NCBI RefSeq assembly: GCF_900100385.1
Contig: NZ_FNFC01000010.1
Location: forward strand, 62,001-126,000
From: Halovenus aranensis
GTDB lineage: Archaea; Halobacteriota; Halobacteria; Halobacteriales; Haloarculaceae
Direction: 5' to 3'
DNA length: 64,000 nt
Position numbers and translations under genes: made by a program. Below, piece by piece: positions 4,713 through 16,948 of the stretch. Position 1 is the first letter of the stretch, and each line of letters begins with the position of its first letter. Under the pieces are notes generated by a model. That model saw only the letters and a program-made list of their open reading frames with translations. It searched no databases and was not told the DNA's origin.

Positions 4713-4847
4713 GGACGGTAATGAGTAGCATATGACTTTAATTTAACCTGCATGTCCTTCAGGAAGCGAGGTGGTTGGAGTTGTTGAGTGATAATCCCAC
4801 ACAACAGCGTGAACTATTTACAGGATGAACATGATTTAGCAAACAGC

Positions 4848-6005
4848 ATGGCACGCTTTCAGTTGTTCTCCGAGGACTCTGAGACGCCAGTGGTCGATGC
4901 AATCCGGGGCCGGGTGCTGCTGACGCTCGCACTCGGAGTGGCCGTGATGTTGTTGCTCGACTTGCTCGCCGGCCTGGCGGGTATCGAGATCGCCGAATTT
5001 GGCGGCAGAACACTCGGGGGAGAAATAGAGCTCAGTACCGTCGGAAAGCGCATCTGGACGGGAACGATAGTTGGACTGATATTCGGGCTCGCTGGAATCG
5101 GACTTTCGATGACATACAGTATCCTCAACTTCGCGAACTTTTCACACGGCGACCTGTTCACCACGGGAGCGTTTACCGGGTGGGGGGTCGCGCTGCTGGT
5201 TGCCGGTTGGGGTGTCGGCGACGCAGGGTATCTGTTGCTCGCACGGTCTGGGACCGGTCCCAGTTCGACCGATATCGGGGCATCAATTATTGCCTCGCCA
5301 CTTGCGATACTCATCGGTGTCGTCGTCGCGGCGGTTGCGACGACAGGCGTTGCGCTGCTTGCCGACCGATTCGTGTACAGACCGATGCGCGACCGGGGCG
5401 GAATCCCGCTTCTCATCGCCTCGATTGGCGTTGCACTCGCGCTTCGGTCGACAGTCCAGTTCGTCTACGGTCCCCAAACACGGGGCGTCACCGGAACCGA
5501 GGGCATCGAGCGGACAGACTTCCTCGGCACGGGTCTCTCGGTCGACCTCCATCAGGTGACGCTACTCGTCGTCGCGCTGGGACTGATGATTGCGATGCAT
5601 CTCCTGTTGCAGCGGACAAAACTGGGGAAGGCGATGCGCGCGATGGCCGACAACAAGGACCTCGCGCTCGTCACCGGTATCCCGACAGAGCGTATCGTCC
5701 GCGCGACTTGGATACTCGGGGCCAGCCTCGCCGGTATCGCCGGCTTCCTGTACGTGCTCGAACGCGGGACGATGAACTACAACGTCGGCTGGTTCCTCCT
5801 GTTGTTCATCTTCGCGGGGGTTATCCTCGGTGGCATCGGCTCCATCTACGGGGCGATTGCCGGCGGCCTCGTCATCGGCTTCGTCCACGAGGTCTCGCTC
5901 ATCTGGATCTCCTCTGATTTCAACGCCGCTGCCGCGTTCCTGATTATGATTCTCGTCTTGCTGTACCGGCCCGAGGGCATCTTCGGAGGGGTGACAACTG
6001 CATGA
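4848..6005 (+). CDS. livH: HAAT-family ABC permease, LivH type (cluster 1)
   Basis: 385 residues from the ATG at 4848 (MARFQLFSEDSE). This start is preferred over the GTG at 4788 because the extra 20 residues are polar and unlike LivH. LivH is one of two membrane subunits of a hydrophobic amino acid uptake ABC transporter. The family N-terminal signature GLSMTYSILNFANFSHGDLF is present, as is the cytoplasmic coupling segment AMRAMADNKDLALVTGI before the ATPase-facing helices, and a GGIGSIYGAIAGGLVIGF block near the end. It opens the livHMGF operon and overlaps livM by 4 nt (ATGA). No binding-protein gene accompanies it. Confidence 0.93.
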   Translation: MARFQLFSEDSETPVVDAIRGRVLLTLALGVAVMLLLDLLAGLAGIEIAEFGGRTLGGEIELSTVGKRIWTGTIVGLIFGLAGIGLSMTYSILNFANFSHGDLFTTGAFTGWGVALLVAGWGVGDAGYLLLARSGTGPSSTDIGASIIASPLAILIGVVVAAVATTGVALLADRFVYRPMRDRGGIPLLIASIGVALALRSTVQFVYGPQTRGVTGTEGIERTDFLGTGLSVDLHQVTLLVVALGLMIAMHLLLQRTKLGKAMRAMADNKDLALVTGIPTERIVRATWILGASLAGIAGFLYVLERGTMNYNVGWFLLLFIFAGVILGGIGSIYGAIAGGLVIGFVHEVSLIWISSDFNAAAAFLIMILVLLYRPEGIFGGVTTA

Positions 6006-7342
6006 CAGCCAGCGAGGCGACACAACCGGGGCTGCGCGACCGGTTCATCGGCTGGATTGAGCAAAGCGACCGGCGCATCGTGCTCGCGACGGTCGCGTTC
6101 GTCTACGGCGTGTTCGCGATACTCGTCATCCTCGAACAGGGCCTGGGACTCGGGACCGTCAACTCGATTTTCGGTGCCTGGCGGACCATCACGTTCCTGT
6201 TTGCCGCGTACGCGTTGCTCACGCTGGCGCTGAACCTCCACTGGGGGTACACCGGGATGTTCAACATCGGCGTTGCGGGCTTTATGGCCGTCGGCGTCTA
6301 CACGATGGGACTGCTCAGTACATCGCCGGACGCCCTTTCGGGACAGGGGCTTGGCCTGCCGCTGCCGATTGGTATCCTCGGCGGGATGATTGCCGCTGCA
6401 CTCGTCGGGCTCGTCGCCGCGATTCCCGCCCTCCGGGTGAGCGCGGACTACTTGGCGATTGTTACGCTCGGGCTCTCTGAGATTATTCGCCTCTCGGCCG
6501 GCTCTCGGACGCTGTCGAACTGGACGACGAACACCTTCGGCGCCGGTACCGGCGGTGGGAGCGGGATGGACCTACCCGACCGGCCGACGGATTTCATCTT
6601 CAACAGCTCGATCGGTGAGTCCATCGCCGACGTGTTCACTGTCGATGTCCCCAGAATCGACATGCTGTTGTTCGAATTCGGCAACAGAGAGGTGACGCTG
6701 ATCAGTTCGTCGATTCTCAGTGACTTCGTCTGGACGTTCGTGATGTTGCTGGTGCTGGCCGGCGTCTACTGGATGGTCCGGCGCATCGGCTACTCGCCGT
6801 TCGGGCGGGTGCTGAAAGCTATCCGCGAAGACGAACTCGTTGCACAGTCACTCGGGAAAGACACCCGTCGTTTCAAAATCAAGGTGTTCATGCTCGGCTG
6901 TGCGCTGATGGGGCTGGCTGGGATACTCTGGCAGGGGAGTCAGGGCTTTGCCAATCCCAACTCTTACCGGCCAGTCGTCACGTTCTACGCCTTCATCGCG
7001 CTGATTATCGGCGGGTCCGGCTCGAACACCGGCAGCGTCGTCGGCTCGATTCTGTTCGTGGGACTGCTCTTCGAGGGGCCCCGACAGGTCGGTGCGATTA
7101 TCAGTGCCCGTCTCAACCTCGCGGACGCGCCCGGAACTTTCGACGGCGCAGTCGCGCCACTGGCACAACTCGACGTGACGCCGTTTCTCGCCTACGCGGT
7201 GGACAACATCGCGCCGCTGCAGTTCGTGTTGCTCGGCGTCGTGTTGATTATCATCATCCAGAAACGCCCCGACGGCGTCCTCGGTGACCGGACCGAGACT
7301 GCCGCCGCAATCGACCTGCACAAGGAGGAGACTAATGAGTGA
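6002..7342 (+). CDS. livM: HAAT-family ABC permease, LivM type (cluster 1)
   Basis: 446 residues. This is the second membrane subunit of transporter cluster 1. LivM hallmarks are ALNLHWGYTGMFNIGVAGFM after the first helices, PALRVSADYLAIVTLGLSEI, and the coupling segment FGRVLKAIREDELVAQSLGK. The C-terminus ends in a charged tail, EAAIDLHKEETNE-like. It overlaps livH by 4 nt and livG by 8 nt, so translation is likely coupled. About residues 180-235 form a longer extracellular loop (GAGTGGGSGMDLPDRP onward) than in clusters 2 and 3, which could matter for docking a binding protein. Confidence 0.93.
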   Translation: MTASEATQPGLRDRFIGWIEQSDRRIVLATVAFVYGVFAILVILEQGLGLGTVNSIFGAWRTITFLFAAYALLTLALNLHWGYTGMFNIGVAGFMAVGVYTMGLLSTSPDALSGQGLGLPLPIGILGGMIAAALVGLVAAIPALRVSADYLAIVTLGLSEIIRLSAGSRTLSNWTTNTFGAGTGGGSGMDLPDRPTDFIFNSSIGESIADVFTVDVPRIDMLLFEFGNREVTLISSSILSDFVWTFVMLLVLAGVYWMVRRIGYSPFGRVLKAIREDELVAQSLGKDTRRFKIKVFMLGCALMGLAGILWQGSQGFANPNSYRPVVTFYAFIALIIGGSGSNTGSVVGSILFVGLLFEGPRQVGAIISARLNLADAPGTFDGAVAPLAQLDVTPFLAYAVDNIAPLQFVLLGVVLIIIIQKRPDGVLGDRTETAAAIDLHKEETNE

Positions 7343-8153
7343 CGCAACCACGACCCCGCCGGCGGAGACCACCACGGAGACGGCCGCGACGCCGCTCCGG
7401 GTCGAAGGGCTAGAGAAACGGTTCGGTGGCATCGTTGCCGTCGACGACGCGAGCTTCGACGTGAAAGCCGGAACAGTAACTGGCCTTATCGGTCCCAACG
7501 GCGCCGGGAAGTCGACGACGTTCAACTGTATCACCGGCGCACTCACGCCGACCGACGGTGAGGTGTACTTTCAGGGTGAGAAGATAACCGGGATGCGCCC
7601 CGAGCAAATCGCCAACCGCGGACTCGTCCGCACCTTCCAGATTGCGCGGGCGCTCTCGGAGATGACTGTCCTAGAGAACCTGATGCTCGCGCCGAAAGCA
7701 CAGCAAGGCGAGAAGCTGTGGCGCTCGGTTGTGCCAGGTGCCCGCCAGGGCGTCGTTGACCAGGAAACTGAGCTACGCGAGCGTGTCTGGGAGACACTGG
7801 AATTTTTCGAAATCGACCATCTCGCCTACGAGAAGGCGGAGAATCTCTCTGGTGGGCAACAGAAGCTACTCGAGATGTCGCGGGCGATGATGACTGAACC
7901 CGAGATGCTGTTGCTCGACGAGCCGATGGCTGGTGTCAACCCGACACTCGAAGACAAACTCCTCGACCGCATTCACTCGCTGCGCGAGGACGGCTACACG
8001 TTCCTGCTCGTCGAACACGATATGGACGTCATCATGGAGGAATGTGAACGAGTCATCGTCATGCATCAGGGGTCGATTCTCGCCGACGGCAACCCCGACG
8101 AGATTCGTGACAACGAACAGGTCATCGAGGCGTATCTAGGTGAGGATATATGA
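7335..8153 (+). CDS. livG: HAAT-family ABC ATP-binding protein, LivG type (cluster 1)
   Basis: 272 residues from the ATG at 7335 (MSDATTTPPAETTTETAATP), a Thr-rich start before the ATPase domain; the open frame upstream overlaps livM and is not similar to LivG. Walker A is GPNGAGKST, the signature is LSGGQQKLLEMSRA, Walker B is MLLLDEPMAGVNP and the switch His lies in LLVEHDMDVIM. LivG powers uptake together with LivF. It overlaps livM by 8 nt and livF by 4 nt. Confidence 0.94.
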   Translation: MSDATTTPPAETTTETAATPLRVEGLEKRFGGIVAVDDASFDVKAGTVTGLIGPNGAGKSTTFNCITGALTPTDGEVYFQGEKITGMRPEQIANRGLVRTFQIARALSEMTVLENLMLAPKAQQGEKLWRSVVPGARQGVVDQETELRERVWETLEFFEIDHLAYEKAENLSGGQQKLLEMSRAMMTEPEMLLLDEPMAGVNPTLEDKLLDRIHSLREDGYTFLLVEHDMDVIMEECERVIVMHQGSILADGNPDEIRDNEQVIEAYLGEDI

Positions 8154-8956
8154 GCGAACAGGAGACACCGACGGAGCCGACAGGGGAGTCGACCGACGAA
8201 GAGCACGGAGACGTTTCGGCGAAGACCGACCCGCTCGCGGCAGCGCCCGAAGAGTCACTGCTGGAGGTGCGTGACCTCGACGCCGGGTACGGCGACCTCC
8301 AGATTCTCGAAGACGTCGACCTCGACGTCGGTGACGGCGAGTACGTCACGGTCGTCGGTCCCAACGGTGCGGGCAAATCGACCGTGATGAAATCTGTCTT
8401 CGGGCTGACGACGTACATGGGGGGGACGGTCGTCTTCGACGAGGAGGAAATTCACGGCCTGCGGCCCGAGGAGATTATCTACAAGGGAATCAGTTACGTC
8501 CCGCAAAACGACAACATCTTTCCGACGCTCTCGGTCCAGGAGAACCTGGAGATGGGTGCATACATTCTGGACGAGGTCCCACAGGACCGCCTTCAGGACG
8601 TGTACGACCGGTTCCCGATTCTCGAAGACCGGAAATCACAGAAAGCCGGCTCGATGTCTGGCGGCCAGCGCCAGATGGTCGCTATGGGGCGGGCGCTGAT
8701 GCTCGACCCGGACCTGCTGTTGCTCGACGAGCCCTCTGCTGGCCTCGCGCCGGACCTCGTCGAGGAGATGTTCGACCGCATCGACCGCATCAACGACGAC
8801 GGGACGGCGATACTGATGGTCGAGCAGAACGCGAAAGAGGCTCTGCGGCGGTGCGACCGGGGATACGTACTCGCACAGGGCCAGAACGGCTACGTCGACA
8901 CCGGCGACCGCCTGCTTGCAGACGAGGAGGTTCGTCAGCAGTTCCTTGGCGGCTGA
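8150..8956 (+). CDS. livF: HAAT-family ABC ATP-binding protein, LivF type (cluster 1)
   Basis: 268 residues. A low-complexity acidic leader of about 38 residues precedes the ATPase domain, which starts LLEVRDLDAGYGDLQIL. Walker A is GPNGAGKST, the signature is MSGGQRQMVAMGRA, Walker B is LLLLDEPSAGLAP, and ILMVEQNAKEALRRCDRGYV carries the LivF-type Gln-Asn in place of the usual switch His. It ends RQQFLGG, as is usual for LivF. It is the last gene of the livHMGF operon. The long leader is unusual for LivF, but the ATG at 8150 overlaps livG by 4 nt, which supports it. Confidence 0.94.
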   Translation: MSEQETPTEPTGESTDEEHGDVSAKTDPLAAAPEESLLEVRDLDAGYGDLQILEDVDLDVGDGEYVTVVGPNGAGKSTVMKSVFGLTTYMGGTVVFDEEEIHGLRPEEIIYKGISYVPQNDNIFPTLSVQENLEMGAYILDEVPQDRLQDVYDRFPILEDRKSQKAGSMSGGQRQMVAMGRALMLDPDLLLLDEPSAGLAPDLVEEMFDRIDRINDDGTAILMVEQNAKEALRRCDRGYVLAQGQNGYVDTGDRLLADEEVRQQFLGG

Positions 8957-9055: not shown

Positions 9056-10282
9056 CTACACGACCAGCGGTATCAGCAACACCCCCATGAGCGTCATCCG
9101 GCGCGAGCCAAAGCGCGCGGGAATCAGTCCGACAGCCGTGGCGACGCCGAACACGGCGAGTCCGACGACACCGGTAAGGGCGGCGACGAGTACACAGAGA
9201 AAGCCGAGCACGCCGACCGACAGCCGGACGTTGTCGACCGACCCGACGAGTTCGAGGTACCGATCGCCGACGACGAGGACGAGTACGAACGCCACGGCGG
9301 CGGCGATAGCGACGCTCCCGAGCAGTATCGGGAGGTTGTGAGGGACGCCGGTGTTCTCGACGGCGACTAACACCCCAGTCCGGGGACTGCCCAGTGCGAC
9401 GAGTGCAAACAGCGCGAAGACGCTGTTCGCCGTGCTGACGCCGCTTGTGGCGACGACGAACGCTCGTGGCCCGCGATGTGGGACCACGACCATCGCTGCA
9501 CCAGCCGCGATAGCCGCCGAGATGCCCGGCAGATAGCCGACGAGCGCGCCACAGAGCGTTCCAGCGAGACCGATACCGAAGACGAACCGCCGGGAAGCCG
9601 TCACCCGTGTGTCGGCCTGTGGCGGGACCCCCTCGCCACCCAGTGCCTCGATGAGAATCGGTGCGCCGAACAATCCGGCGAACAGGGGCACGAGCATGTC
9701 GCCGGCTGGCAACACGCCATCGACCGGAATATCGAGAGTGAAGACCCCGAGGGCCCCGCTGAGACAAAGCGACAGCGCGCCGCCGAGGCGCGCGAGGAGT
9801 GTCTGCTCGGTGACGACGAGCAGCAGTGCCACGATACCGAGGACGACCGAGAGGTTCGCGGCAATCGTCGGATAGAGCTGTTCCATCCCGAGGGTAATGG
9901 GGACCGCAAGCGGGACCGCGAAACCAACGGCGAGCGCGCTCCCGAGCGCTGAGAGCCGGAGTGCCTCGTGGCCCCTCCCTTCGAGAACGAGCTGGTGACC
10001 CGGCAGTGCGGTCGGTGCCATCGCCGGGTCCGGGACGCCAAGCGCCAGCGCGGGGACGATATCGAGAAAGGTGTGGGTTACCCCTGCCGCGAGCATCGCC
10101 GCGCCGACGTACAGTGGCTCTGCCGGGACAGCAGGGGCGATGCTGGCGAGAACGAGCGCGAAGTTGTTCGCGTGTAAACCGGGCACCAGACCGCTCACCG
10201 TGCCAAGCGAGATGCCGCCAAGGACGAACGCTAGCGCGGTAACCGTCGTCGCTGGCGCCACGCCGACTGTTCCGGGGTCCAT
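9056..10282 (-). CDS. TctA-like tripartite tricarboxylate transporter permease
   Basis: 408 residues, very hydrophobic, with about ten or more predicted helices. TctA family features are the N-terminal GTVSGLVPGLHANNFALVLA, the PTALPGHQLVLEGRGHEALR segment with its conserved PG/G-rich turn, and a repeat of the glycine-proline motif in GALVGYLPGISAAIAAGAAM. In bacteria TctA works with TctB and a TctC binding protein, but neither lies nearby, as is common for archaeal stand-alone members. It is divergent from the DUF operon at 10402, so the two DtxR-like palindromes at 10353-10402 lie in the shared intergenic region. Substrate unknown. Confidence 0.8.
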   Translation of the reverse strand: MDPGTVGVAPATTVTALAFVLGGISLGTVSGLVPGLHANNFALVLASIAPAVPAEPLYVGAAMLAAGVTHTFLDIVPALALGVPDPAMAPTALPGHQLVLEGRGHEALRLSALGSALAVGFAVPLAVPITLGMEQLYPTIAANLSVVLGIVALLLVVTEQTLLARLGGALSLCLSGALGVFTLDIPVDGVLPAGDMLVPLFAGLFGAPILIEALGGEGVPPQADTRVTASRRFVFGIGLAGTLCGALVGYLPGISAAIAAGAAMVVVPHRGPRAFVVATSGVSTANSVFALFALVALGSPRTGVLVAVENTGVPHNLPILLGSVAIAAAVAFVLVLVVGDRYLELVGSVDNVRLSVGVLGFLCVLVAALTGVVGLAVFGVATAVGLIPARFGSRRMTLMGVLLIPLVV

Positions 10283-10352: not shown

Positions 10353-10368
10353 TTTAGGCATACCTAAA
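10353..10368. promoter_or_regulatory. Palindromic metal-regulator-like operator 1
   Basis: TTTAGGCATACCTAAA is a near-perfect 16-bp inverted repeat (arms TTTAGG and CCTAAA). It resembles DtxR/IdeR/SirR-type iron or manganese boxes. It overlaps the 5-prime edge of the AT-rich TATA-like element of the gene at 10402. A second copy begins 34 bp further on. Confidence 0.65.
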
Positions 10369-10374
10369 ATATAA
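10366..10374 (+). promoter_or_regulatory. TATA-like box of the 10402 operon
   Basis: AAAATATAA is centred about 32 nt before the ATG at 10402. That spacing fits a transcript that is leaderless or nearly so, the common haloarchaeal arrangement. It sits between the two palindromes. Confidence 0.55.
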
Positions 10375-10386
10375 GCCGGTCCGCGT

Positions 10387-10402
10387 TTTAGGCTTGCCTA
10401 AA
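10387..10402. promoter_or_regulatory. Palindromic metal-regulator-like operator 2, overlapping the start codon
   Basis: TTTAGGCTTGCCTAAA repeats the arms of operator 1 exactly (TTTAGG and CCTAAA), 34 bp downstream. Its last base is the A of the ATG at 10402-10404, so a bound repressor would cover the probable transcription start. Confidence 0.65.
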
Positions 10403-10689
10403 TGATTGAAACGCCGCTCACCGACATCCGTTCGTACATCGAATCGCTGTCGAGCGACTCGGGAGAGTACTATCTCGTCTGTGCGCGGACGGGCGAACAG
10501 CCCGTGCCTGCTGCTGGCTGCCGGTTCGATTCGCGTGAACAGGCTCGGGCCGGCGCACGGGCGACCGAACAGTACAGGGCGCAGCTCCGACAGTACGACC
10601 CTCGGGTCGCCTGCCACGACATTATCGTCTGCCAGGCTCACGCCCCTCCTGAGCGAGCGACGGTCGTCCGACGGGGTGAACCAGCGTGA
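10402..10689 (+). CDS. Small haloarchaeal protein, DUF7552-like
   Basis: 95 residues, starting MIETPLTDIRSYIESLSS. It is acidic at the start and ends with a basic stretch, ERATVVRRGEPA. It contains YYLVCARTGEQPVPAAGCRF and a helical DSREQARAGARATEQYRAQL. From memory it resembles the haloarchaeal DUF7552 family of unknown function; I could not check this. There is no signal peptide, membrane helix or clear metal-binding cluster, though four Cys/His residues (C28, C40 and the CHD motif) are present. It overlaps the next gene by 4 nt (GTGA), so the pair is an operon, and its promoter carries two DtxR-like palindromes. Confidence 0.8.
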   Translation: MIETPLTDIRSYIESLSSDSGEYYLVCARTGEQPVPAAGCRFDSREQARAGARATEQYRAQLRQYDPRVACHDIIVCQAHAPPERATVVRRGEPA

Positions 10690-11474
10690 CGACGCCAGTC
10701 GAACAGGCGCTTGCCCGGGTCGAGGACGAACAGGACCATATTCGTGAGCTACGAAGCGGCTTCGACGTATTCGAGCGCGAGGTCCGCCAGCTCTCGGCGG
10801 TTTCGCCGCGGAGCCAACGGCAAGCTAGCCAGGCCGCTGCCGGCGGAACCGTCGCTGCGACACAGCCCCTTGGCGGGAACGCGGGCAAGCGCGACCGCTG
10901 TGCAAAAGTCCGTGACCTGTTTGCTGACCACGTGCAGGCACGCGTTCGCGTCGGGAACGAACCGCTACTGGAGACTGTCCGGGGCGAACTGGGCGACCGG
11001 GTCGCGCTGGCGCTCGCCCCGACCACTGACACCGGCTTCACCGAGACAGTCAAATCCGAACTACTGTCTGTGACCGAACAGCGACAGACCAAACTCGACG
11101 CGATGGAGCGCGCCCTCGATACCGAGGCTGCGTCGCTCCAACAGGCTATCGAGGCGATTCCAGAGGTCGAACACTCTCTCGAACCGACCCACGGGCCGCT
11201 GCTGACGCTTGGCTTTACCGAGCTTCAGGCGCGTCACAACGCGCTTCTGTCCTGTGAGCGCCGCTTGGAAGGGCTTGTGCAGTCGAGACAACAGCATCTC
11301 CACGCCGCGACAGGAGCCGACGCGGCAGTCGGCCTGACCCACCACTCGCTGGCCGAGTACCTCTATGACTCGCTTGCAACGCCACATCCTGTGCTATCGA
11401 CGCTCACAGAACTCACTGCGTACTGCCGAGAACAGAAACGGGCGGTCCGGGACCACCTCACCCGCCGAGTCTAG
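10686..11474 (+). CDS. Helical cytoplasmic protein, DUF7260-like
   Basis: 262 residues from a GTG overlapping the stop of the preceding gene. It begins MTTPVEQALARVEDEQDHIR and is predicted almost wholly helical, with long heptad-like stretches around residues 5-35, 130-160 and 185-205. From memory it belongs to the haloarchaeal DUF7260 group, whose role is unknown. It has no signal peptide or membrane span. Its translational coupling to the DUF7552-like gene and the metal-box promoter suggest that the pair acts together under metal control (inference). It converges with idi, the two stops overlapping by 3 nt. Confidence 0.8.
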   Translation: MTTPVEQALARVEDEQDHIRELRSGFDVFEREVRQLSAVSPRSQRQASQAAAGGTVAATQPLGGNAGKRDRCAKVRDLFADHVQARVRVGNEPLLETVRGELGDRVALALAPTTDTGFTETVKSELLSVTEQRQTKLDAMERALDTEAASLQQAIEAIPEVEHSLEPTHGPLLTLGFTELQARHNALLSCERRLEGLVQSRQQHLHAATGADAAVGLTHHSLAEYLYDSLATPHPVLSTLTELTAYCREQKRAVRDHLTRRV

Positions 11475-13081: not shown

Positions 13082-14419
13082 CTACTTGTCGCCGCCAAAC
13101 CGGGCCGCAATCTTCCGGGAGACGTGTTTCGAGACCGACTCCGTCCCCAGCCGAAGCCGTAGCGTCCCGAGCAGGCCGATGGGGACAAAGAGGACGAACA
13201 ACACGAAGATAATGCCCGCGTAGAACTCGCCGTGGCCGGTCATGAACGAGTCCATCGCTTTGCTGACTGTTAGCCCGCCGCTGATAGTCGCGTCGAGGAT
13301 ACTGTCCGGGATGTTCTGTTCGAGGAACGGCTGGAGGCCGCCGCCACTCCCCTCGCGGGCGAGGAACTCCTCGACCCATTCGAGGAAGAGATAGCCAAAC
13401 AGCGGACCGGCGAGTGTCTTCAGCCCGCCGATGATAGCCGCCACCAGCGCGAAGCCGGTCACGAGGAAGAAGAAACTGTTCTGCGGGTTGATGAACCCCT
13501 GGTAGCCGACGAGTAGGCCCCCGGCAATCGCGCCGAAGAAGGCACTCACCGCGAACGCACCCATCTTGAACCAGAAGGTGTTGTACCCGATTGCGCGGGC
13601 ACGCTCCTCGTTTTCGCTGATGGCAATCATCACGCGGCCAAACGGCGAGTGGATGATGCGCTGCATCGCCAGATAGCAGAGCAGGACGACTGCGCCGATA
13701 GCGAAATACGAGACGACGATAGCCGGACTCGTCTCGCTGAACATCGGTGCCAGGTCGAGCCCCAGCAGCGACGTATCCCCGAACGCTCCGAGTTCGACCT
13801 GCAGTGCGTCGACGAAGGGGACCCCAAGCTCCGGATTGAACGTCTCGACGGAGGAAGGGGTGCCGGGCGTCACGCCGTCTGCCGGGTCGCTCCCGCCAGG
13901 CGTGATGAAATCGAGGTTCTTAGAGGCGACGAACAGGATTTCGGACACCCCGAGGGTAATCATCGCGAAGTAAACTCCTGAGAGCCTGAACGAGATGAGT
14001 CCGACCAGCACGGCCGCGACGACGGCGACCAGCGCACCCAGCACCAGCAGCGTCATAAAGGGTAGTTCGGCGGGCAACAGCGGGAGTTGTCCGTTGTAGC
14101 CGAGGACGACGAAGTACGCGCCGATGCCGAAGAAGGCGGCGTGACCGAACGAGAGATAGCCGGTGTAGCCGCTGACGAAATCGAACGACATCGCGAACAG
14201 CCCGAGCCACAACACCGTCAGCATCGTCCGGGGGCGCAAGAGCAGTGTCTCTGCGAACAGCCCGAACTGCCCGACGAGGAAGTCGTAGGCGAACGGGTAG
14301 AGAACGAACAGCGCCACCACGGCGATATGCACCGTGTGGTCGCGCAGATACTGGCCGACCCAGGCGGGCAACAGACCCGAACCAGACGTATCCTCGGTGC
14401 TCGCTGTCTCGGTACTCAT
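13082..14419 (-). CDS. livM: HAAT-family ABC permease, LivM type (cluster 2)
   Basis: 445 residues and the last gene of the livK-G-F-H-M operon. Signature segments are SFDFVSGYTGYLSFGHAAFF, LISFRLSGVYFAMITLGVSE, and the coupling loop FGRVMIAISENEERARAIGY. An inserted extracellular loop at about residues 165-205 (DFITPGGSDPADGVTPGTPS) lies between helices. The C-terminal tail RLGTESVSKHVSRKIAARFG is basic and probably cytoplasmic. It overlaps livH by 4 nt. It is the second membrane subunit for the transporter served by the binding protein at 16952-18409. Confidence 0.93.
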   Translation of the reverse strand: MSTETASTEDTSGSGLLPAWVGQYLRDHTVHIAVVALFVLYPFAYDFLVGQFGLFAETLLLRPRTMLTVLWLGLFAMSFDFVSGYTGYLSFGHAAFFGIGAYFVVLGYNGQLPLLPAELPFMTLLVLGALVAVVAAVLVGLISFRLSGVYFAMITLGVSEILFVASKNLDFITPGGSDPADGVTPGTPSSVETFNPELGVPFVDALQVELGAFGDTSLLGLDLAPMFSETSPAIVVSYFAIGAVVLLCYLAMQRIIHSPFGRVMIAISENEERARAIGYNTFWFKMGAFAVSAFFGAIAGGLLVGYQGFINPQNSFFFLVTGFALVAAIIGGLKTLAGPLFGYLFLEWVEEFLAREGSGGGLQPFLEQNIPDSILDATISGGLTVSKAMDSFMTGHGEFYAGIIFVLFVLFVPIGLLGTLRLRLGTESVSKHVSRKIAARFGGDK

Positions 14420-15477
14420 CCGTGATCACCCTGTCCTTCGACGCCGAACAGGCCACGTGGTTGGAGAATGAGCATCACAACCAGGATGGCGAAGATGAGC
14501 AACTGGTCGATATCGGTGAAGGTGACCACCTCGACTCGGAACGCCCAGGTCGCCAGCGCGTCGAGCATCCCGACGAGCAGCGAGGCCACGACAGTCCCCT
14601 TGAACGAGCCCAGGCCGCCGACGATGACGATGACAAACGCCGGCAGGAGGACGCCGAGTGCGAGCGGGACGTTCACCCGCCAGAGCGGCGACCACATCAA
14701 CATCACGCCGGCGGCCCCGGCGAGGCCGGACCCGATAGCGAAGACGACTGTGAAGGTGCGATTGATGTTGATGCCGAGTGCCCGTGCCATCTCGTCGTCT
14801 TCGACGCCGGCACGCACAAACAGGCCGTAGCGGGTCTCGTTGAGGAAATACCAGATGCCAGCTACCGTGAGTATACCCAACAGAATCTGGAATGGGTGGA
14901 GGCCACCGATACTGACACCGAGGAGGTTGAACGTGCCGTCGAGACTCTCCGGGATGGTCTCGTCGCGCGGAATCGACCAGTCGATTGCCTCCCGGCCGCT
15001 GTTTACGTTGTAGTAGTCGACGAGCATGCGCATGAGTTCCTCCATCGTAATCGAGACGCCGAACGTGAGCAATATCATGTATATCGGCGGATACTCGTAG
15101 AGTCGCCTGATGAGTGCGACCTCGAAGACCACACCGAGCACGGCGAGCAGGACGAACACACCCACCAGTATCAGCAGGAACGTCGCGACAGAGCCGACCA
15201 GCCCCATCGAGCCGACACCGAGAGCCAGCACTGCTGTGCCGGCGATGTAGGCACCGTACATCGTGAACGCGCCGTGTGCGAAGTTGATAACATCCATCAG
15301 GCCGAAGATGAGTGTCAGCCCGCTCGCAATCATCAGATAGAGACTCGCTTTCGCCAGCCCCTCAACGAAGACACTCGCAAACTCCGTCGGGGAGGTGAAC
15401 AGGTCGACGACCTCACCGACAGAGAGCGGCACGCCGGCCGCGAGCGCCGGGTCGAGTGCTGCTGTGAGTCCAGTCAT
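14416..15477 (-). CDS. livH: HAAT-family ABC permease, LivH type (cluster 2)
   Basis: 353 residues. The first about 45 residues are a long periplasm-side or amphipathic leader, then the LivH core starts SLYLMIASGLTLIFGLMDVI and NFAHGAFTMYGAY. The coupling segment VRAGVEDDEMARALGINI is present, as is GGLGSFKGTVVASLLVGM near the end. It overlaps livM and livF by 4 nt on either side, so all are probably co-transcribed and co-translated. Confidence 0.93.
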   Translation of the reverse strand: MTGLTAALDPALAAGVPLSVGEVVDLFTSPTEFASVFVEGLAKASLYLMIASGLTLIFGLMDVINFAHGAFTMYGAYIAGTAVLALGVGSMGLVGSVATFLLILVGVFVLLAVLGVVFEVALIRRLYEYPPIYMILLTFGVSITMEELMRMLVDYYNVNSGREAIDWSIPRDETIPESLDGTFNLLGVSIGGLHPFQILLGILTVAGIWYFLNETRYGLFVRAGVEDDEMARALGININRTFTVVFAIGSGLAGAAGVMLMWSPLWRVNVPLALGVLLPAFVIVIVGGLGSFKGTVVASLLVGMLDALATWAFRVEVVTFTDIDQLLIFAILVVMLILQPRGLFGVEGQGDHG

Positions 15478-16172
15478 GCCGAGAGATACCTCCTGAGTCG
15501 TTCGTCGTCGACACTGACCTCACTCGTCTTGCCCGAGTCGACGATTGTGCCGTGGTCCATCACGTAGAATCTATCCGCGAGGTCGAGCGCGAGCCCGAGT
15601 TTCTGCTCGACGAGCAAGATTGGGAGTGACTCCGAGGCTGCGAGCAGTGCTTCGCCGACGTCGGTGACGATTTTCGGAGCGAGCCCCTCGCTTGGCTCGT
15701 CGACGAGCAACAGGTCGTTGCCGCCGACGAGGCCACGCGCGATGGCGAGCATCTGTTGTTGCCCGCCCGAGAGGTCGCCGGCCCGCTGGTCGGCTCGCTC
15801 GCCTAGAATCGGGAACGTCTCGTAGGCCAACTCCAGGGCCTCGGCCTCGCTCGCGTCGCCGGGCACCGACGCCCTGACGTTCTCCTCGACGCTGAGTCGG
15901 CTGAACATCCGGCGGTCCTCTGGAATCCAGCCGATGCCGGCGTCGGCAACCTCGTAGGTGTCTTTACCGACGAGTTCCTCGCCTTTGAACTGTATCGAGC
16001 CCTGACGCGGCGGCGTCAACTGGAGAATCGAACGGAACGTCGTCGTCTTGCCGACGCCGTTCCGGCCGAGCAACGCGACGACCTCGCCTTCCTCGACAGA
16101 GAGGTCGACGCCTTGGAGGATGTGGCTCTGGCCGTAGTAGGTGTGTACGTCGTCGAGTTCGAGCAGCGTCAT
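15474..16172 (-). CDS. livF: HAAT-family ABC ATP-binding protein, LivF type (cluster 2)
   Basis: 232 residues from the ATG at 16172 (MTLLELDDVHTYYGQSHILQ); the open frame continues upstream but there overlaps livG. Walker A is GRNGVGKTT, the signature is LSGGQQQMLAIARG, Walker B is LLLVDEPSEGLAP and the end of the core is ILLVEQKLGLALDLADRFYV, with Gln in the LivF-type switch position. The GRNGVGKT variant and YYGQSHIL start resemble LivF/UrtE relatives that serve amides or aromatic acids, but substrate assignment is not possible. Confidence 0.93.
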   Translation of the reverse strand: MTLLELDDVHTYYGQSHILQGVDLSVEEGEVVALLGRNGVGKTTTFRSILQLTPPRQGSIQFKGEELVGKDTYEVADAGIGWIPEDRRMFSRLSVEENVRASVPGDASEAEALELAYETFPILGERADQRAGDLSGGQQQMLAIARGLVGGNDLLLVDEPSEGLAPKIVTDVGEALLAASESLPILLVEQKLGLALDLADRFYVMDHGTIVDSGKTSEVSVDDERLRRYLSA

Positions 16173-16948
16173 GCGACCCCCTCCGAGCGCTGCAGGTCGC
16201 CTGGTTCGTAGCCGCCGAGATAGGCGTCCTGAACCTCGGGATTCCCGCGAATCGCGTCCGGCTCGCCGTCGGCGATAATTTCGCCCTGATTGAGGACGAC
16301 AATCCGGTCGGAGACGTCCATCACGAGGTCCATGTTGTGTTCGACGAGTAACACGGCGTGGTCGGTGGCCACGTCTTCGATAATTTGGCGAATCGAGTCC
16401 ACGTCTTCGGTGGAGACGCCGGCGTTTGGTTCGTCGAGCAACAGCACGTCGGGGTCGCCCGCGAGTGCGATACCGACCTCGAGCTGTCGTTTCTCGCCGT
16501 GGCTGAGGTTTTCGGCGGGCTGGCTCGCTTTCTCGTCGAGTCCGACCCGTTCGAGAATCTCGTGGGCGCGTTCGTAGTGGTCGTCGAAGGCGTTGACGTT
16601 GCGCCAGAACCGCCAGGAGTCGTCGCTGTGTGCCTGCTGGGCGATGCGGACGTTCTCCAGGACGGAACTCGTCGGAAAAACATTCGTTATCTGGTACGAG
16701 CGGTGGACGCCGAGCTGTGCGGTTTCGTAGGTTGTGTCGTCGGTCACGTCGGCCCACCCATCTGCGCCGCCGAGTTCGATGCTGCCCTCGCTGGGTTCGA
16801 GCGCGCCAGTCAGGAGGTTGAAAAACGTCGTCTTGCCGGCCCCGTTGGGACCGATGAGCGACGTGAGTCTATCGTCGAGTTCGAAGTCGACACTGTCGAC
16901 GGCCGTGAGGCCACCAAAGCGTTTCGTGAGCGCCGTCGTGCGGAGCAT
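16169..16948 (-). CDS. livG: HAAT-family ABC ATP-binding protein, LivG type (cluster 2)
   Basis: 259 residues. Walker A is GPNGAGKTT, the signature is LSHGEKRQLEVGIA (an LSHG rather than LSGG variant seen in part of the LivG/UrtD group), Walker B is VLLLDEPNAGVST and the switch His lies in VLLVEHNMDLVMDVSDRIVV. It sits 3 bp after the binding-protein gene and overlaps livF by 4 nt. The LSHG variant differs from LivG of clusters 1 and 3, so this cluster belongs to a different subfamily. Confidence 0.93.
   Translation of the reverse strand: MLRTTALTKRFGGLTAVDSVDFELDDRLTSLIGPNGAGKTTFFNLLTGALEPSEGSIELGGADGWADVTDDTTYETAQLGVHRSYQITNVFPTSSVLENVRIAQQAHSDDSWRFWRNVNAFDDHYERAHEILERVGLDEKASQPAENLSHGEKRQLEVGIALAGDPDVLLLDEPNAGVSTEDVDSIRQIIEDVATDHAVLLVEHNMDLVMDVSDRIVVLNQGEIIADGEPDAIRGNPEVQDAYLGGYEPGDLQRSEGVA

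Follow-up and report, generated by a model that had tools for sequence, protein, structure and literature searches.

The DUF7552-DUF7260 operon and its promoter

The stretch of Halovenus aranensis DNA analyzed in this study (64,000 nucleotides, referred to as the window) contains an operon of two genes encoding a DUF7552 and a DUF7260 protein. Two palindromic boxes and a TATA-like element are located upstream of the first gene. The features of the locus and their positions within the window are:

9056-10282, reverse strand: TctA-family gene (Pfam), a divergent neighbor that is probably outside the unit
10353-10368, no strand: box 1, TTTAGGCATACCTAAA, at -49 from the ATG with its right arm over the BRE/TATA region
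10366-10374, forward strand: TATA-like element of the DUF7552 promoter, AAAATATAA, with the core ATATAA at 10369-10374
10387-10402, no strand: box 2, TTTAGGCTTGCCTAAA, spanning the predicted transcription start and ending on the A of the ATG
10402-10689, forward strand: gene for the DUF7552 protein, 95 aa (Pfam PF24422, 121.4 bits, cut-off 27)
10686-11474, forward strand: gene for the DUF7260 protein, 262 aa (Pfam PF23921, 197.3 bits, cut-off 27)

A preliminary description of this DNA had proposed a DUF7552-like protein of 95 aa and a DUF7260-like protein of 262 aa encoded with a 4-nt overlap, and both assignments are confirmed by the open reading frames and the Pfam scores: the GTG start codon of the DUF7260 gene overlaps the stop codon of the DUF7552 gene by four nucleotides (GTGA). 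The flanking region contains two Liv-type branched-chain amino-acid ABC transporter clusters on opposite strands (4788-8956 and 13082-16757, identified from the open reading frame translations only).

The two palindromes reported in the same description are exact copies of TTTAGG-N4-CCTAAA that lie 34 bp apart (10353-10368 and 10387-10402), and the final base of box 2 is the A of the DUF7552 ATG (10402). No further box with up to two mismatches was found elsewhere in the 64-kb window; 0.17 boxes are expected at this threshold and two or more were seen in 2 out of 100 shuffles. The TATA-like stretch had been placed between the palindromes; the stretch itself was recovered but it is not wholly between them, as AAAATATAA and box 1 share the three A residues at the end of the box. 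Archaeal transcription starts approximately 26 bp downstream of the TATA element, and based on this spacing the position of the element predicts a transcription start at approximately 10398-10402. From this predicted start the mRNA of the operon should be leaderless or nearly so. The proposed leaderless design agrees with this layout, which is conserved at orthologous promoters (see below).

Distribution of the boxes

The 3.29-Mb genome contains 13 exact boxes, compared with a single copy of the reversed pattern and approximately 0.04 copies predicted from base composition; with up to one mismatch the numbers are 18 for the box and five for the reversed pattern. Across the class the box is present in 115 out of 116 genomes, mostly in 2 to 20 copies, and the reversed controls are nearly always 0 or 1. 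Pairs of boxes with a distance of 30 to 37 bp also occur at other promoters. On a metagenome-assembled contig of the Chloroflexi (L136:4659-5645), paired boxes 34 bp apart are located directly before a gene for a ZnuA-type metal-binding protein, indicating that this type of box is not confined to the archaea.

Within the same genome, boxes are found at an operon encoding an FAD oxidoreductase, a FecCD permease and an ABC ATPase, and at the second part of this FecCD cluster, which encodes a substrate-binding protein, an oxidoreductase and a DUF7552-DUF7551 fusion. The fusion gene (contig C24, L048:12468-13385) is the last gene of this box-bearing iron-transport cluster and the first gene of the window operon therefore has a paralogue in an iron-transport operon that carries the same box. 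Three boxes are located at the gene for a Peripla_BP_2 iron-binding (substrate-binding) protein (contig C7), and a box with one mismatch is found at ferritin/DUF7547. A further box lies 82 nt before the start of a 136-aa DtxR-family gene that is located opposite a NifU-domain gene (contig C21).

Other boxed genes are not plainly related to iron and encode a glycosyltransferase, an N-acetyltransferase, a histidine kinase and a halocyanin-like protein. The last of these is a DUF5059 protein of 827 aa whose C-terminus is plastocyanin-like, and its gene is preceded by two boxes 37 bp apart (contig C42, L050:6827-9365); at another locus (L112), a DUF5059 gene that also has paired boxes is a neighbor of a DUF7260 gene. 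A box lies at the start of the gene for the PAS histidine kinase (contig C55, L051:6849-8103); the N-terminus of this kinase is weakly DUF7551-like (31.7 bits in Pfam, below the cut-off), and the protein may act as a sensor in the response to iron. The boxes on contig C28 (L049:7999-8042 and L049:12738-12785) precede a gene of the aminoglycoside N-acetyltransferase family and a gene for a dolichyl-phosphate hexose transferase.

The regulator that recognizes the boxes might be a DtxR-family protein responding to manganese or zinc instead of iron: IdeR and MntR are members of a single family, a SirR-type gene lies beside a ZnuABC-like transporter in the same genome, and the paired boxes on the Chloroflexi contig precede a ZnuA-type gene. 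However, even when one mismatch is allowed, no box is located at the ZnuABC-like genes of the same genome, and the boxes are found at the FecCD-type iron transporters and (with one mismatch) at ferritin, which makes a response to manganese or zinc quite improbable.

A total of 40 loci were chosen based on protein similarity to DUF7552 or DUF7260, blind to the presence of boxes, and 7.5 kb around each gene was scanned. The absence of boxes from orthologous promoters had been set beforehand as a refutation of the proposed control. An exact box was found within 7.5 kb in 36 out of 40 close-orthologue loci and was absent from four, compared with 0 out of 20 loci of distant DUF7260 paralogues. The close-orthologue loci contain 52 boxes, and 0.76 would be predicted from how densely boxes occur in genomes of this family; the corresponding Poisson value (4e-75) overstates independence because the loci are related by descent, and the comparison with the paralogues stands without it. 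A second, distant DUF7260 paralogue in the genome of the window (G000:C26:70531-71250) is located on a contig without any exact box. A chance origin of the boxes was rejected based on the shuffles, the reversed-pattern controls and the distant-paralogue control.

The organization of the promoter is also shared among orthologues. The -49/-15 geometry, in which the last A of box 2 is the A of the ATG, is found in the window, in a genome of a second genus of the Haloarculaceae (L105) and in Natronorubrum thiooxidans (L141), and the boxes of Halovenus salina are located at -50 and -15, again with an overlap of the start codon. Box 2 is kept at -15 in L092, L093, L105, and L141, with a degenerate box 1 in L093, and the orthologous promoters have an A/T-rich element downstream of box 1. 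The nearest orthologue genome, which belongs to the same genus, has the same promoter and gene as the window.

Genes next to the orthologues encode substrate-binding proteins, OxA/OxB-like oxidoreductases, FecCD, an ABC ATPase, DtxR-family proteins and ferritin. The DtxR-family gene is located downstream of the DUF7260 gene and on the same strand in 6 out of 30 loci that contain DUF7260. In the genomes of three Haloferax species, paired boxes are followed by a DUF7260 gene, by a DtxR-family gene that directly adjoins or overlaps it, and then by a further box and ferritin.

These data also bear on the possibility that an unrelated repressor uses the palindromes and that their resemblance to a DtxR box is due to chance. 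The box precedes a DtxR-family gene as well as iron transporter genes, its core matches the IdeR consensus, and the orthologue loci carry 52 boxes where 0.76 are expected, all of which argue against an unrelated repressor and render it very improbable. The similarity of the arms to DtxR/IdeR/SirR boxes that had been noted earlier is borne out, as the core corresponds to the first 14 bp of the IdeR box and boxes are found at iron genes and at a DtxR-family gene.

The preliminary description further suggested that the divergent TctA-family gene shares the control region, an arrangement that would be compatible with control of the DUF7552 operon by the same boxes. The distance from box 1 to the start codon of TctA is 70 bp, and two other genomes of the same genus share this arrangement. 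However, TctA is present in 57 out of 57 genomes of the family that were searched, yet boxes were identified at only 2 out of 30 TctA loci examined (each scanned whole), and both of these (the window and the locus from the same genus) adjoin the DUF7552 operon. The TctA gene also possesses a separate TATA-like element close to its start, ATTTAAAT, which is well away from the boxes. With 28 out of 30 orthologue loci lacking boxes, shared control of TctA is unlikely.

Proposed control and role of the operon

The IdeR-like arms, the boxes at iron and DtxR-family genes and the boxes at orthologous promoters support control by a regulator of the DtxR type. The DUF7552-DUF7260 operon is, with high probability, an iron-starvation operon within the haloarchaeal DtxR-family (Idr/TroR/SirR) regulon and, judging from the iron genes that carry the same boxes, is very probably switched on when iron is scarce. 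The suggestion of a separate, undescribed metal-responsive system is not supported, as the operon appears to be part of the haloarchaeal iron regulon, with paralogues and orthologues of its genes located within iron-transport operons.

Repression by a metal-loaded DtxR-family protein is the best reading of the promoter because the boxes are positioned over the BRE/TATA region and the start site and resemble the IdeR box. When iron is sufficient, the metal-loaded protein would bind both boxes. The bound repressor would cover the BRE/TATA region and the start site and could thereby block TBP/TFB and RNA polymerase, and occupation of either box should be enough to stop initiation. At low iron the repressor would lose its metal, which would free the leaderless promoter and derepress the operon; binding, the identity of the metal and the direction of the response are inferences here.

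The genome encodes four DtxR-family proteins with an Fe_dep_repress domain, on contigs C21, C22, C24, and C42. Candidates for the regulator are the 136-aa protein encoded by the boxed gene on contig C21 and its paralogue on contig C42. The C21 protein is a good candidate, or alternatively a co-target, because a box precedes its own gene and its orthologues adjoin DUF7260 elsewhere.

Both proteins of the operon look cytosolic. Sequence searches of the PDB with both alignments identified no relative of DUF7552 or DUF7260 with a solved structure, and Pfam searches at E values up to 10 returned just the DUFs themselves and scattered weak matches. The AlphaFold2 model of DUF7260 (pLDDT 86) predicts an all-helical bundle and has no Foldseek match at E ≤ 0.001; the best VIA match (Z = 9.4, to spectrin-like and designed bundles) is within the background for helical proteins and gives no usable indication of function. 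The model of the DUF7552-DUF7551 paralogue (AlphaFold2, pLDDT 88) likewise has no Foldseek match at E ≤ 0.001. The DUF7551 part of this model weakly resembles H-NOX, V4R, and Bet3/TRAPP chains in VIA (Z of 5-7, maximum 7.1), a weak but consistent hint that DUF7551 may be a ligand-binding domain, which is treated here only as a lead.

Because genes for their orthologues are found in operons for iron ABC transporters or beside DtxR-family and ferritin genes, the DUF7552 and DUF7260 proteins may be accessory factors in the acquisition of iron or in its regulation. These gene neighborhoods would fit a role in the handling of imported iron or in tuning the response of the DtxR-family regulators. 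A more specific and rather doubtful proposal is that DUF7552, DUF7551, and DUF7260 form a cytosolic iron-response module that works with the neighboring DtxR-family regulator or the incoming iron-chelate, for example, by ligand sensing through DUF7551; the window operon would then represent a pared-down form of this module that stands alone and is tightly controlled by two boxes.

The analysis places three families of unknown function (DUF7552, DUF7551, and DUF7260) in the haloarchaeal iron response, at the strength given above, and provides a searchable promoter signature of two boxes approximately 34 bp apart around a TATA element. DtxR-family control of haloarchaeal iron genes is already known (PMC11349517) and the box motif itself may well have been published. 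Text searches of a limited literature collection for the names DUF7552, DUF7551, and DUF7260 and for the motif returned nothing archaeal, and the regulon membership of the three families appears to be unreported in the literature searched. Haloferax volcanii, a genetic model, encodes both DUF7260 and DUF7552 and thus lends itself to direct tests of whether these proteins act in the uptake of iron or in DtxR-family control.

Comparison with known systems

The actinobacterial DtxR/IdeR box has a 19-bp consensus, TTAGGTTAGSCTAACCTAA, with four CCTAA repeats, and in IdeR-repressed genes it is located over the start site or the core promoter (PMC10317159). Both window boxes contain the core TTAGG-N4-CCTAA, which corresponds to the first 14 bp of this consensus, and they also overlap the core promoter or the start site. 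Unlike the IdeR box, the window boxes lack the second, overlapping CCTAA pair (in box 1 the CCTAA is followed by AATAT), so that only the 14-bp core and not the full 19-bp box with four repeats is found in either of them. A further difference is that the window has two separate boxes, 34 bp apart, that bracket the TATA element.

Among operons for ABC transporters of the iron(III)-siderophore type (e.g., Haloferax mediterranei E6P09_02475-02485), the box-bearing iron-transport genes find a counterpart in the combination of permease, ATPase, substrate-binding proteins and NAD(P)/FAD oxidoreductase. In many genomes DUF7552-DUF7551 and DUF7260 are encoded inside or adjoining such operons, whereas the DUF pair of the window stands alone, without transporter genes, and its DUF7552 protein has no DUF7551 part.

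Another close parallel is the network of DtxR-family regulators of iron homeostasis described for Halobacterium salinarum (Idr1, Idr2, and SirR) and Haloferax volcanii (Idr, SirR, and TroR) (PMC11349517). Boxes of the window type mark the kinds of genes that belong to such a network, namely iron ABC transporters, ferritin and a DtxR-family gene, and in Haloferax the paired boxes precede a DUF7260 gene that is followed by a DtxR-family gene.
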